Assembly: GCA_902511425.1 (NCBI GenBank)
Contig: CABXFE010000009.1
Span: 1 to 37,560 of the forward strand
Reading direction: 5' to 3'
DNA: 37,560 nt
DNA from: an uncultured SAR86 cluster bacterium
GTDB lineage: Bacteria; Pseudomonadota; Gammaproteobacteria; Magnimaribacterales; D2472
A model generated the notes under the pieces. It did not search any database, was not told the DNA's origin, and saw nothing but the letters and a program-made list of their open reading frames with translations. Of this stretch, positions 21,996-26,952 are shown in pieces; the first letter of the stretch is position 1; each line of letters starts with the position of its first letter. The position numbers were made by a program, and so were the translations under genes.

Positions 21996-22009
21996 GAACT
22001 AAGTGATTC

Positions 22010-22065
22010 CTATAAGATAAGGTTTTTTCCTGTACCTTATAGCTAATTTGGAGGGGAGCCAAATT
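22010..22065 (+). promoter_or_regulatory. Structured 5' leader with Shine-Dalgarno in a hairpin loop
   Basis: Two hairpins precede the first oxidoreductase gene. In the first, CTTATAG (22036-22042) can pair with CTATAAG (22010-22016), or ACCTTAT (22034-22040) can pair with ATAAGGT (22017-22023); the two forms exclude each other. In the second, AATTTGG (22045-22051) pairs perfectly with CCAAATT (22059-22065), presenting AGGGGAG, the core of the ribosome-binding site, in the seven-base loop just before the ATG at 22068. A translational switch is possible but not shown. Confidence 0.45.
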
Positions 22066-22067
22066 AT

Positions 22068-24071
22068 ATGGATACAAAATACTTATTTAAAAGACATAAT
22101 ACCTATTGGGTAAAAGTTGCCGTTCCAAAAGATCTTCGTAAGGAGCTAGGTTTTGATCTGAGAACTTCCTTGCATACCCACGAATTATCTGAGGCTCAAA
22201 AATTAAGAGAAGCGGTGGTAGAAGATTTTAAATCTCAAATATTTGCTGCCAAAGAAAACCTCAGACAGTCAAATGGAAAAAATCCTGTAAAAACTTTTAT
22301 GCCAGTCACTGATACCTCTGACCCTCAGTATTATCATAAAGTTGTAGATTGCCAATATGCATGCCCAGCTCATACACCTGTTCCAGAATACATTAGAAAA
22401 ATATCTCAAAATGAATACACAGAAGCCTATATGATTAATTGGGAGTCAAATGTATTTCCTGGAATTCTAGGTAGGACATGCGATAGGCCTTGTGAACCAG
22501 CTTGCCGAAGAACCAGAACTCATGAAAAACCTGTAGCTATATGCAGGCTAAAAAGAGTTGCGGCTGATTTTAAAGACGATGTTTCAGATCTATTGCCGAA
22601 AGCTCCTAAAAAATGCAATGGGAAAAAAATTGCTCTTATAGGTGGTGGGCCTGCATCCTTAACTGTTGCTAGAGATCTTATCGTGATGGGATATGAGTGC
22701 ACGCTTTTTGAAAAAGACCCTCAAGCTGGTGGATTAATGAGAACTAATATCCCATCATTCAGACTTCCAGAAGAGGTCTTGGATGCTGAGGTTGATCAAA
22801 TTCTTAATATGGGATTAAAAACAAAATTTAATTCTGAGATCACTAGCCTGAAAGATTTCTTAAAAGAAGATTTTGATGCTGTTTTTATTGGAACTGGGGC
22901 TCCAAAAGGTAAAGATTTAAATATTGAAGGTCGTAAAGATGCTGAGGCTAACATTCATATAGGCATAGATTTTTTAACAAGTATTGCCTTTGAGCATATT
23001 GACTCTATAGGAAAAAAGGTAATTGTACTGGGGGGTGGAAACACAGCAATGGATTGCTGTCGATCTTCCTTAAGATTGGGTGCTGAAGATGTAAAGGTTG
23101 TTGTTAGAAGCCCTTTCTCTCAAATGAAAGCTTCTGAATGGGAGATAGAGGATGCGATGGAAGAAAATATTCCAATTCTTGAAAATCACGTTCCTAAAAA
23201 GTTTATTCATGAATCTGGCAGGCTAACTGGAATGGAATTTCAGAAAGTCGAAGCTGTTTTTGATGAAAAAGGAAATCGATCGCTGGTACCAACAGATGAA
23301 AAGCCAGTCATCCTTGAGTGTGATGATGTATTAGTGGCCATTGGCCAAGATAATTCATTTGAATGGATAGAACGAGACATAGGTTTAGAGTTTGGAGAAT
23401 GGGATATGCCCGTTGTTGATCCTGTAACATTTCAATCAACTCATCCAAAAGTCTTTTTTGGTGGAGATGCTGCATGGGGACCTGAAAATATAATCTGGGC
23501 TGCTGCTCACGGACACCAAGCTGCAATTTCCATTCATAAATTCTGTCAAAATGAAGATATCAATGAAAGGCCGTCTCCTGGAACGAATCTATTAAGTCAA
23601 AAAATGGGGCTGCATGAATGGTCCTATGACAATGATATTTCTCAAGCTAAAAGATTTCTAGTACCTAAAGCAGATCAAGATACAGCACTGAAAAGCTTAA
23701 AAATTGAAGTTGAAAAAGGCTTTGATGCAGATCTGGCCATGGAAGAAGCTCAAAGATGCTTAAACTGCGATGTGCAAACCGTCTTTTCTGAAAGCTTATG
23801 TATTGAGTGTGATGCTTGCGTAGATATTTGTCCCACAGATTGTATTAATTTTATGTTTAATGCGCCTGAAAATGAGGTTAGGCAAAATACCAGAATTCCT
23901 GCCTTAAACATTGAACAAGATTTATTGGTTTCTAAAATCTTACCAACTAAAAGAACGATGTTTAAAGATGAAGATGTTTGCCTGCATTGTGGTTTGTGTG
24001 CAGAAAGATGCCCGACTGGTGCTTGGGACATGCAAACATTTCTTTATGAAGAAGCTAAGGTCTACTCATGA
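22068..24071 (+). CDS. GltD-like NADPH/FAD/Fe-S flavoprotein with integrase-type N-terminal domain
   Basis: This 667-residue protein is probably the electron-transfer subunit of the 2-oxoacid oxidoreductase encoded next to it. Residues about 1-60 (KYLFKRHNTYWVKVAVPKDL, then LRTSLHTHELSEAQKLR) look like the DUF6538 domain normally at the N-terminus of tyrosine recombinases. Residues about 90-500 are GltD-like: Fe-S cysteines C95, C99, C138, C142 and C146, FAD site IALIGGGPASL (188-198) and NAD(P)H site VIVLGGGNTAMD (318-329). Residues 575-652 hold two 4Fe-4S sets (C578/C581/C584/C588 and C638/C641/C644/C648). The ATG at 22068 has a strong AGGGGAG, so the extra domain is really translated. The stop overlaps the next gene as ATGA. 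No recombinase catalytic domain is present. Confidence 0.9.
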   Translation: MDTKYLFKRHNTYWVKVAVPKDLRKELGFDLRTSLHTHELSEAQKLREAVVEDFKSQIFAAKENLRQSNGKNPVKTFMPVTDTSDPQYYHKVVDCQYACPAHTPVPEYIRKISQNEYTEAYMINWESNVFPGILGRTCDRPCEPACRRTRTHEKPVAICRLKRVAADFKDDVSDLLPKAPKKCNGKKIALIGGGPASLTVARDLIVMGYECTLFEKDPQAGGLMRTNIPSFRLPEEVLDAEVDQILNMGLKTKFNSEITSLKDFLKEDFDAVFIGTGAPKGKDLNIEGRKDAEANIHIGIDFLTSIAFEHIDSIGKKVIVLGGGNTAMDCCRSSLRLGAEDVKVVVRSPFSQMKASEWEIEDAMEENIPILENHVPKKFIHESGRLTGMEFQKVEAVFDEKGNRSLVPTDEKPVILECDDVLVAIGQDNSFEWIERDIGLEFGEWDMPVVDPVTFQSTHPKVFFGGDAAWGPENIIWAAAHGHQAAISIHKFCQNEDINERPSPGTNLLSQKMGLHEWSYDNDISQAKRFLVPKADQDTALKSLKIEVEKGFDADLAMEEAQRCLNCDVQTVFSESLCIECDACVDICPTDCINFMFNAPENEVRQNTRIPALNIEQDLLVSKILPTKRTMFKDEDVCLHCGLCAERCPTGAWDMQTFLYEEAKVYS

Positions 24072-25900
24072 GTAAAATTACCTCAATTAATGAATTTGTT
24101 ATTAAATTTGCTAATGTTAATGGCTCAGGCTCAGCAAGCGCTAATCAAATGTTTGCAAAAGGCATTTTTAGATCAGGCATACCCGTCAGCCCAAAAAATA
24201 TTTTTCCATCTAACATTCAGGGCCTTCCAACATGGTTTGAAATAAGGGCTAGTGAAAAAGGATATCTAGGAAGAAAAGCTGGTATTGATTTCATGGTTGC
24301 AATGAACCCACAATCCTATCTTCAAGACGTTGCTGAAATTAATCCAGGTGGATATCTTTTGTATGATTCATCGTGGAAAAGAGAATTTCATAGAGATGAC
24401 ATAAATATTATAGAGGTGCCGCTAACTTCATTATGTGTTGATGAATTTCAAAACCCCAAAACAAGGCTTTTATTTAAAAACCTTGTGTATGTAGGAGCTT
24501 TGTCATATTTGATGAGCATGAACAAAGATATTTTTATTGAGCTCATTGAGGAGCAATTCAAAGGCAAAGAAAAACTTATTGCGCCCAATGTACAGGCGCT
24601 GGAAATGGGCTTTAACTATGCAAAAAAACATCTAACTGATGTCTGTAATATAAAAGTAAATCAAAAAAATCTTACAGATGGGATGATCCTTACGAACGGA
24701 AACAATGCCGGAGGGCTGGGTTGCGTCTATGGTGGAGCAACGGTTTGCGCTTGGTACCCTATCACTCCGTCAACATCTTTGGCTGAATCATATAAAAAAT
24801 ACTGTGACCAATTTAGGGTTGATGATAAAACAGGTAAAAATAAATTTGCCTTTGTGCAAGCTGAAGATGAGTTGTCATCTATTGGCATGGCAATTGGTGC
24901 AAATTGGAATGGAGCAAGAGCATTTACAGCAACAAGTGGACCAGGAATTTCACTCATGACAGAATTTGTTGGCCTAGCCTATTTTGCAGAAATCCCAGTA
25001 GTGATTTTTAATATTCAAAGGGGAGGCCCATCTACCGGCATGCCAACACGAACTCAGCAATCAGATATCTTGTCTTGTGCCTATGCCTCTCATGGAGACA
25101 CTAAACATGTGATGCTCATTCCTGCTGATCCAAAAGAATGCTTTGAATTTGCAGCTGAATCATTTGATATATCTGATCGACTGCAGACGCCAGTTTTTGT
25201 GTTATCTGATCTAGATATTGGAATGAATGATTGGACATGCCCAGAATTTGAGTGGGATGATAGTAAGAAGTTTGATCGGGGTAAAGTTTTATCTAAAGAC
25301 GATCTAGAAAATATGGAGTCATGGGGTAGATATCTTGATGTTGATGGAGACGGTATTCCATTTAGAACGCTTCCTGGTACTCATCCCGAAAAAGGTGCCT
25401 ACTTTACTCGAGGCAGCTCACATGATGAGTATGCAAGATATGTTGAAGATGGTGAAGTTAATGCAAGAAATATGTCACGGATCTTAAAGAAATTTGAAGG
25501 TGCAGATAAATTTTTACCTAAACCAATTTTCAAGCAAGAAACCAATGCTAGCTCAAATGGATTAATTTATTTTGGTAGTACAGAGGCAGCAATGCAAGAA
25601 TCCCTTGATCAATTATCAATTGCAGGTTTCCCAATAGATGCAATGAGAATACGGTCTTTTCCATTTGGAGCTGAAGTGTGGGATTTTATAGATCAGCATG
25701 AACGCATCTTTCTTGTAGAACAAAATAGAGATGCTCAAATGAAGACGCTTATAGTGTCTGAAGGAAGTATTAATCCACAAAAATTCATCTCAATATTGTG
25801 TTTCGATGGTGCGCCAATTACAGCTAATTTTATTTCAGAATCAATTTTAGAAATTATCTCTGAAAATAGTGTTTCAAAAACAGCTGAGGAAATGAAATGA
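24068..25900 (+). CDS. 2-oxoacid:acceptor oxidoreductase, fused gamma-alpha subunit
   Basis: This 610-residue subunit has the gamma-type domain first (residues about 10-190, with GSGSASANQMFAKGIF and GYLGRKAGIDFMVAMNP) followed by the alpha pyrimidine-binding domain (about 205-600, with PITPSTSLAE, AEDELSSIGMAIGANWNGAR and TSGPGISLMTEFVGLA). That gamma-alpha fusion order is usual in KorA-type 2-oxoglutarate-class enzymes. The enzyme oxidises a 2-oxoacid and CoA to acyl-CoA and CO2, or works in reverse. It overlaps both neighbours by four bases, so three subunits are coupled in stoichiometric translation. The exact 2-oxoacid cannot be read from the sequence. Confidence 0.92.
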   Translation: MSKITSINEFVIKFANVNGSGSASANQMFAKGIFRSGIPVSPKNIFPSNIQGLPTWFEIRASEKGYLGRKAGIDFMVAMNPQSYLQDVAEINPGGYLLYDSSWKREFHRDDINIIEVPLTSLCVDEFQNPKTRLLFKNLVYVGALSYLMSMNKDIFIELIEEQFKGKEKLIAPNVQALEMGFNYAKKHLTDVCNIKVNQKNLTDGMILTNGNNAGGLGCVYGGATVCAWYPITPSTSLAESYKKYCDQFRVDDKTGKNKFAFVQAEDELSSIGMAIGANWNGARAFTATSGPGISLMTEFVGLAYFAEIPVVIFNIQRGGPSTGMPTRTQQSDILSCAYASHGDTKHVMLIPADPKECFEFAAESFDISDRLQTPVFVLSDLDIGMNDWTCPEFEWDDSKKFDRGKVLSKDDLENMESWGRYLDVDGDGIPFRTLPGTHPEKGAYFTRGSSHDEYARYVEDGEVNARNMSRILKKFEGADKFLPKPIFKQETNASSNGLIYFGSTEAAMQESLDQLSIAGFPIDAMRIRSFPFGAEVWDFIDQHERIFLVEQNRDAQMKTLIVSEGSINPQKFISILCFDGAPITANFISESILEIISENSVSKTAEEMK

Positions 25901-26952
25901 CCTACATTGTTAAACCTGTTAATCATCACCCTAATTTAGAAAAAAATGCCCTTGGATTAACAAGAAGAGATTATGAGGGAACCATATCAACTTTATGTGC
26001 TGGATGTGGGCATGATTCTATTAGTGCTGCGGTAATAGAAGCATGTTATGACCTAAGTCTTGCATCGGATCAAATTGCTAAACTCTCAGGAATTGGATGC
26101 TCATCTAAATCCCCTTCTTATTTTCTAAATCAAGCGCATGGCTTCAATTCAGTGCATGGCAGAATGCCATCAGTTGCAACAGGAGCAAATCTTGGAAATC
26201 AAGACTTAATGTACTTAGGTGTCTCAGGTGATGGAGATACTGCAGGAATAGGCATAGGACAGTTTATGCATGCAGCTAGGCGGCAGCTTAACATTACATA
26301 CATCGTGGAAAATAACGGCACCTATGGTTTAACTAAGGGCCAATTTTCTGCAACCAATGACCAAGGTTCAAAAAGTAAGTATGGAGAAGAAAATGTATTA
26401 GCTCCGATTGATCTTGCCGCGATGGCCATTCAGCTTGGAGCGGGGTTTGTAGGCAGAAGTTTTTCAGGAGATAAAGATCAATTAGTTCCTTTATTAAAAG
26501 CAGCAATGAAATTTAAAGGATTTTCATTGATAGATATTATTTCTCCATGTGTAACCTTTAATAACCATGTGGGATCAACCAAGAGCTATGATTATATTAG
26601 AGAACATAATGAATCTGTATCCAGTCTAGATTTTGTTCCAATAGAGCAAGAGATAAAGACAAGCTATAACAAAGGGTCCAAGGTCGAAGTGCCCTTGCAT
26701 GATGGAGCGATACTGACCCTGGAAAAACTTTCAAAAAAATACAATCCACTCGATAAAGGCTTGGCGGTGCAGAGTTTAAATGAGGCTGAGAAAAATGGAA
26801 AAGTGCTTACTGGATTATTGTATATAAATCCTGAAGTAAAAGATCACGCAGAGATATTAAATATTTCAGACACTCCACTCAATGAGTTCTCTGATAAGGA
26901 GTTGTGCCCAGGATCAGACAAGCTTGCAAAGGTTAATGCAAGCTTGAATTAA
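25897..26952 (+). CDS. 2-oxoacid:acceptor oxidoreductase, beta (TPP) subunit
   Basis: This 351-residue subunit binds thiamine diphosphate and the proximal iron-sulfur cluster. The TPP/Mg site is GDGD (111-114) with the asparagines at 139-140 in VENNGTYGLTKGQ. Cysteines C34 and C37 in LCAGCGHD, C68 in GIGCSSK and C218 in ISPCVTF match the four ligands of the [4Fe-4S] cluster in beta subunits of this family, including their spacing. Electrons from the 2-oxoacid would pass from this cluster to the fused flavoprotein upstream and then to NADP. It ends the three-gene operon; no strong terminator is seen before the convergent SnoaL-like gene. Confidence 0.93.
   Translation: MTYIVKPVNHHPNLEKNALGLTRRDYEGTISTLCAGCGHDSISAAVIEACYDLSLASDQIAKLSGIGCSSKSPSYFLNQAHGFNSVHGRMPSVATGANLGNQDLMYLGVSGDGDTAGIGIGQFMHAARRQLNITYIVENNGTYGLTKGQFSATNDQGSKSKYGEENVLAPIDLAAMAIQLGAGFVGRSFSGDKDQLVPLLKAAMKFKGFSLIDIISPCVTFNNHVGSTKSYDYIREHNESVSSLDFVPIEQEIKTSYNKGSKVEVPLHDGAILTLEKLSKKYNPLDKGLAVQSLNEAEKNGKVLTGLLYINPEVKDHAEILNISDTPLNEFSDKELCPGSDKLAKVNASLN

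Follow-up and report, generated by a model that had tools for sequence, protein, structure and literature searches.

The window analysed here, a stretch of 37,560 nucleotides from an uncultured bacterium of the SAR86 cluster, carries on its plus strand a three-gene operon. It begins with a gltD-like gene (22068-24071), a single open frame that starts with ATG and encodes 667 amino acids, and continues, with overlapping gene ends, into a korA-like gene for the gamma and alpha parts of a 2-oxoacid:acceptor oxidoreductase (24068..25900; POR and POR_N domains) and a korB-like gene for the beta part (25897..26952; TPP_enzyme_C domain). The korA-like product scores 565 bits with TIGR03710, exceeding the cut-off of 482.75, and the korB-like product 195 bits with TIGR02177, which is under the cut-off of 261.9. 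Most of the gltD-like product is a flavoprotein body (22308..24071), in which Pfam identifies a Fer4_20 domain (residues 94-169, 22347-22574), an FAD/NAD(P) region with Pyr_redox_2 (residues 187-482, 22626-23513) and C-terminal Fer4 and Fe-S regions (residues about 577-652, about 23796-24023). In these three parts, and in the 57-71% identity shared with orthologues outside the order, the protein resembles the PRK12771/GltD-like subunits that stand beside 2-oxoacid oxidoreductases. It differs from them in its N-terminal arm, which the outside orthologues lack, their alignments beginning at about the start of the body, and in its score with the NCBIfam model PRK12771 (NF009410), 409.6 bits over residues 75-656 against a cut-off of 516, by which it is not a member of that family.

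Ahead of the body lie an integrase arm-type domain (residues 1-64, 22068..22259; hereafter the arm) and a linker (residues 65-80, 22260..22307). The initial annotation, made without database searches, had likened the first ~60 residues to DUF6538, and Pfam bears this out for residues 5-57 (E 3e-9 to 2e-10): PF20172 matches the whole 667-residue protein at residues 5-56/57 (22080-22238) with E 2.8e-9 and 36.9 bits, and residues 1-65 alone with E 2.3e-10 and 40.4 bits, which, at a curated cut-off of 27 bits, makes the arm a member of DUF6538. It also matches a profile that we built from 23 arms (E 1.2e-30), in which the window sequence is itself one of the 23 rows. The own genome, which is 56% complete, contains this single DUF6538 match above the cut-off. 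As Pfam finds neither a phage-integrase catalytic domain nor a core-binding domain in the window protein, it is not a tyrosine recombinase itself. That arm and flavoprotein are translated together, as the same annotation had proposed, agrees with the single frame and with the ribosome-binding site GGAGGGGAG at 22050-22058, ahead of the ATG. This site is present in the own-genus upstreams listed and absent from those listed for families f2 and f3 of the order, and it is flanked by a perfect 7-bp inverted repeat (AATTTGG-AGGGGAG-CCAAATT, 22045..22065, plus strand).

A survey of homologues recovered the same fusion, full-length and with the arm, in 19 of the 59 relatives searched (own genome excluded; 67-96% identity), along with one fragment at a contig end. 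Among the best 80 of 581 loci in a broader search, four matches begin at residue 1, three of them SAR86 records and one an uncultured gammaproteobacterium; in the remaining 76, the alignment begins at residue 43-81 (64-71% identity). Likewise, 20 orthologues from elsewhere in the class (57-65% identity) align from residue 62-81. Since outside orthologues align only from residue 43-81, the fusion looks particular to the SAR86 order, with the arm-less enzyme being widespread. Homologues without the segment had been named beforehand as an argument against the fusion; such homologues do exist outside the order, but the order's own homologues have the segment in frame and conserve it.

The arm is also under selection. 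Among 10 distinct own-genus sequences (45 pairs, of which 43, 30 and 43 were usable for arm, linker and body, respectively), arm (codons 1-60) and body have median dN/dS values of 0.026 and 0.030, respectively, and the faster-evolving linker (codons 61-80) has 0.109. In f2 (6 sequences), constraint is weaker on the arm than on the body, with values of 0.187 for the arm, 0.054 for the body and 0.586 for the linker. Given that full-length homologues keep the arm and that its dN/dS is low, it is, as far as sequence comparison can tell, a maintained part of the protein and not a chance reading. One might still suppose that an integrase gene's 5' end merely supplied a start region, which has been kept only since its removal would break translation; after all, outside orthologues manage without the arm, and in f2 it evolves faster than the body. 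We consider such a neutral fossil highly improbable, as own-genus arms are constrained like the body and more than the linker, the arm has been retained on new carriers, and the upstream motif described below has been retained in upstreams that are under 75% alike. Neutral capture is thus disfavoured by the dN/dS values.

The arm-binding domain of tyrosine recombinases has the fold of a three-stranded sheet plus a helix. Compatible with this, the structure predicted for the arm from a five-sequence alignment (pLDDT about 91 for residues 11-60) has the order b-b-a-b-a, with strands at residues 6-9, 12-18 and 30-34 and helices at 21-27 and 40-68. It resembles the attP-recognition structure of a P4-like integrase (3rmp_C) weakly, with a Z-score of 3.9 and an rmsd of 2.7 A over 50 aligned residues at 22% identity; this structure ranks 8, and unrelated folds reach Z 4.7. 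Foldseek gave a best E of 1.9 against the PDB, with no integrase by name among the matches listed (50 of 87), and a best E of 0.02 against BFVD, for an unnamed protein, with one named integrase at E 0.74 among the matches listed (50 of 268). A sequence search for relatives of solved structure returned none that was convincing.

Across the order, PF20172 matches at E<=0.001 in 120 of 203 genomes, and our 23-arm profile gives a strong match (E below 1e-15) in 122 of 202, never two in one genome, the other 13 rows being weaker than E 1e-3. The other 80 genomes are without a strong match; many of the genomes are incomplete, and because of this incompleteness absence is weak evidence. In the 122 genomes, the arm heads a GltD-like subunit in 60 cases, a tail-anchored protein in 40, the cysteine desulfurase IscS in 12, a Rieske protein in nine and a tyrosine recombinase in one; this is a tally of counted rows, in which frame length and family stood in for rows whose sequence was not read. 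Pfam confirms example carriers for the Rieske protein, for IscS (aminotransferase class V) and for the recombinase. All 23 arms in our alignment match PF20172 at E<=1; three scanned IscS arms, at 15.8-26.7 bits, and a tail-anchored arm, at 26.8 bits, are under the 27-bit cut-off. The recombinase (L068) combines the same arm as the window protein with SAM-like and Phage_integrase domains. What had appeared to be a one-off fusion thus does involve a recombinase-type arm, but this arm also sits on other Fe-S related carriers, with one strong match per genome. The tail-anchored carriers (L066, L072-L076, L078, L079, L081 and 1-kb loci among L132-L157) are proteins of 150-210 residues that, judged by eye, consist of the arm and a C-terminal hydrophobic stretch.

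Outside the order, two of 252 genomes of the class have an arm match at E<=1e-6. In the non-SAR86 gammaproteobacterium G368, the arm heads KorA (POR, POR_N; L301:4210-6363), and the gene has one GGTACA upstream, which could be chance on its own. In G338 (L302), an 81-residue arm frame adjoins tRNA-Leu and is followed by other short frames, by eye a remnant; it has two GGTACA copies upstream. In a tree of the arms, those of Rieske proteins are nested in the tail-anchored set (97/93, a starred fork), those of IscS fall among the GltD-like arms of f3 (89/80, not starred), and the KorA arm of G368 is nested in the GltD-like set of f2 (98/81, starred); the tree was computed from 73 columns, has many open forks and came with a long-branch warning. 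As IscS arms fall among f3 GltD-like arms and Rieske arms among tail-anchored ones, the domain has apparently been transferred from gene to gene, and this tree supports a change of carriers. A viral origin of the arm was set aside, with no relative found among the viral contigs searched.

The different carriers have a DNA word in common. Every one of the 58 non-redundant arm genes, which span five carrier types, the integrase included, has GTACA in the 150 nt ahead of it, compared with 23 of 165 control upstreams at these loci, and among 6-mers the excess is largest for GGTACA (47/58 against 14/165); the counts are not independent, since carrier genes share ancestry within groups. The 58 are what remains of 111 arm genes, counted once a record of L132 with a wrong start had been dropped, after exclusion of genes with under 150 nt of upstream sequence or upstreams over 75% alike. 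Removal of four arm genes with misplaced starts and of isc genes whose intergenic region also belongs to an arm gene leaves 13 of 152 controls with GTACA and 5 of 152 with GGTACA. By carrier, GGTACA precedes 56/56 distinct GltD-like, 12/12 IscS, 6/7 Rieske and 24/35 tail-anchored sequences, and the recombinase L068 has two copies upstream. A variant, TG[ACGN]GTACA, is found in 7/7 Rieske and 35/35 tail-anchored upstreams but is absent from those of GltD-like and IscS genes; the two arm subgroups thus use words that differ a little around the GTACA they have in common. The word goes with the arm: f1 Rieske genes have GGTACA in 6 of 6 cases with the arm and in 1 of 24 without it, and arm-less GltD-like orthologues in 2 of 76 (76 of 94 loci being usable), as against the 56 of 56 with the arm. 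The motif association is supported by this sequence evidence.

In the window, the word occurs upstream of the gltD-like gene as a single exact copy, not two: TGTACC at 22031..22036, that is GGTACA on the minus strand, a putative arm-binding site by its position and the motif association. GGTACA has five copies in the 37,560 bases, counted over both strands. An inverted repeat, CCTATAAG (22009-22016) ... CTTATAGC (22036-22043), adjoins TGTACC, spans 22009..22043 and recurs in most of the own-genus upstreams among those listed. Promoter-like matches ahead of the gene sit on the minus strand only (2 found, 1.3 expected), so that an overlap of site and promoter is unsupported at the window gene.

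Site layout differs between carriers. IscS is preceded by an inverted pair in 12/12 listed cases, and tail-anchored genes have direct repeats upstream, with one to several TGNGTACA copies, one of which includes the start codon in most. Overall, the sites occur in both orientations; many lie no more than 60 nt from the start, and the farthest are about 140 nt upstream. Their appearance in either orientation, as inverted or direct repeats, is what sites in duplex DNA would show. The closeness to the start, the copies containing the start codon of tail-anchored genes and the inverted repeat around the ribosome-binding site in the window could instead suggest autoregulation at the RNA level, in which the arm would bind the leader of its mRNA close to the ribosome-binding site. 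We rate this as quite unlikely, given both orientations and the distances of up to about 140 nt, a leader whose folding does not surpass that of shuffles (z -0.03), and the binding of arm-type DNA by integrase N-terminal domains, as described in PMC2951348. The repeat around the ribosome-binding site does form in the RNA-fold centroid; with the leader at the level of shuffles, a regulatory hairpin at this position is unsupported.

A second, different arm-like domain repeats this pattern. It forms the N-terminus of GltD, the glutamate synthase small subunit, in f1 (e.g. L036:3450-5153, minus strand) and has no match in a Pfam scan. A comparison of the profiles of the two arm types gave no significant match, with a probability of 1% over 16 columns around a kSL-T-dl-eA stretch. 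The second profile matched 93 f1 genomes (all 22 loci read have GltD as the carrier), 14 f4 genomes (a Rieske protein in the nine read, L287-L290 and L293-L297), and two own-genus genomes, where it appears as a second match on an indolepyruvate oxidoreductase (IOR) of about 1240 residues (L291, L292). Upstream of f1 GltD, a tandem GTCATAC-N3-GTCATAC is present in 21 of 22 cases in an HMM-placed count, and in a smaller set of 17 such loci one has a mismatched GTCATAC copy. The f4 Rieske genes are preceded by TTTGAACA...TGTTCAAA ending at the ATG in 9/9, and the IOR genes by TATACACA-type repeats in 2/2; four of four arm-less f4 GltD genes are free of such repeats. In G043 (L303), an integrase-like protein with the second arm type adjoins tRNA-Phe and has TTAACACA-type repeats; it contains SAM-like domains and has no Phage_integrase match at E<=0.01. 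As Rieske genes have GTACA sites with the first arm and TGTTCAAA sites with the second, the motif, so far as these upstreams show, follows the arm type and not the carrier.

This also bears on the idea that the arm serves for docking or targeting, recruiting Fe-S enzymes to the membrane or to a partner that they share, with the motif belonging to an unrelated regulator. The enzyme carriers are indeed all Fe-S, Fe-S-assembly or 2-oxoacid redox enzymes, and the Rieske and tail-anchored carriers, with hydrophobic stretches seen by eye, would put the arm near the membrane. But the carriers of the first arm never co-occur, with one strong match per genome, the motif tracks the arm on Rieske proteins as just described, and the recombinase L068 has the same sites, which makes docking an unlikely explanation. 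The initial annotation had offered nucleic-acid binding or subunit contact as a second use of the domain. The former fits best, with the recombinase arm family and the upstream word. Since the fusion is not a one-off and the word lies upstream of every carrier checked, self-regulation is to be preferred over a role in electron transfer or subunit contact.

We regard it as probable, from comparative sequence evidence, that the arm is a DNA-binding module of recombinase origin, which was captured together with its sites and makes the enzyme an autoregulating 'trigger enzyme'. The N-terminal ~60 residues would correspond to a tyrosine recombinase's arm-site-binding domain, retained for its DNA binding, and would most likely bind GGTACA-type sites just upstream of the own gene. 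The GltD-like Fe-S flavoprotein may thereby repress, or otherwise tune, its own gltD-like/korA/korB operon. As to the origin, an integrase gene's 5' end was probably captured with its binding sites, and the domain probably moved between carrier genes later on. If sites and arm were taken over together, the downstream enzyme would have been autoregulated at once, and such a capture would account at one stroke for fusion, constraint, sites and carrier changes. According to PMC2951348, the N-terminal domain of integrases binds arm-type sequences, and an integrase can repress its own gene via sites that overlap the promoter. The autoregulated tyrosine recombinases treated there, KplE1 IntS and P4 Int, resemble the window protein in their N-terminal arm-type domain and in repeated sites just upstream, and differ from it in that the window protein has neither a core-binding nor a catalytic domain and its body is an oxidoreductase.

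Trigger enzymes include PutA, BirA and NadR, and in PutA and BirA the DNA-binding part is an RHH or HTH domain. The window protein would be a PutA-like trigger enzyme with a recombinase arm in this place: a metabolic enzyme and a domain of DNA-binding type, as judged by its family, share one polypeptide, and candidate operators lie by the own gene, in some relatives within a divergent intergenic region. Unlike in PutA, the presumed DNA-binding part comes from a recombinase, the carriers are Fe-S or 2-oxoacid enzymes, and different SAR86 lineages have the arm on different carriers. That binding responds to the flavin or Fe-S state is a guess, attractive in view of the carriers: each enzyme among them is of the Fe-S, Fe-S-assembly or 2-oxoacid redox kind. 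A literature search of listings and abstract openings, with subscription journals mostly outside its reach, returned no description of the fusion and no mention of DUF6538, and integrase, IscR and recombinase do not occur in the accessible part of PMC11582366. If the proposal is true, streamlined ocean bacteria control core genes of electron transfer and Fe-S assembly via a reused piece of a mobile element and its sites, DUF6538 gains a function outside recombination, and we see a DNA-binding domain that changes its enzyme yet keeps its target word. SAR86 would then offer a natural series of cases for the origin of trigger enzymes, and the predicted sites make the proposal directly testable.

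In some relatives, the operon is divergent from iscR or iscS, and the arm-enzyme may act on the isc operon there, too. In one f2 genome and a set of f3 genomes that were examined, purC and a divergently oriented isc operon neighbour the kor operon, whose gltD-like gene bears the arm; iscR separates the two operons in the f2 example. All eight gltD-like/isc gaps checked (seven f3, one f2), counted from 40 nt before to 60 nt after each gap, contain 3-6 exact GGTACA/TGTACC copies. The 250 nt ahead of iscR in the own genome are free of GGTACA, and control of isc via this word is thus unsupported there. An IscR model matched in 109 of 202 genomes, 82 in f1, 26 in f2, one in f4 and none in f3; no match reached the curated cut-off, and a diverged IscR may have escaped the model. 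The IscR-like gene of G036 belongs to the Rrf2 family by Pfam. The arm-enzyme would resemble IscR in acting at the isc operon, and may replace it functionally in f3, where IscR has no match; it differs in being of another domain family. IscR loss is not special to f3 or to families with arms at isc, since f4, where the first arm is not on an isc-adjacent carrier, gave one match only. In other f3 genomes, a TPP-enzyme and aldehyde-dehydrogenase pair replaces the kor operon, and the arm heads IscS. A wider scenario, which we find somewhat doubtful, is that SAR86 repeatedly built redox- or Fe-S-responsive regulators from arms on Fe-S enzymes, that the f3 regulator replaced a lost IscR, and that, when kor was replaced, the DNA-binding domain shifted to IscS and the regulatory role persisted.

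The alternation of the kor operon and the TPP-enzyme/aldehyde-dehydrogenase pair in f3, with the arm at the boundary, could also mean that sites and arms serve an ongoing exchange of cassettes between purC and iscS by a recombinase acting in trans. An integrase with this arm, however, is found in one of the 122 genomes, and the sites are retained at Rieske and tail-anchored loci as well, which leaves this exchange with very little probability next to autoregulation by the arm-bearing enzymes. The alternative purC-iscS cassettes of f3 are represented by loci L032, L034, L088 and L090 on the one side, and by L082-L085, L087, L089 and L091 on the other.
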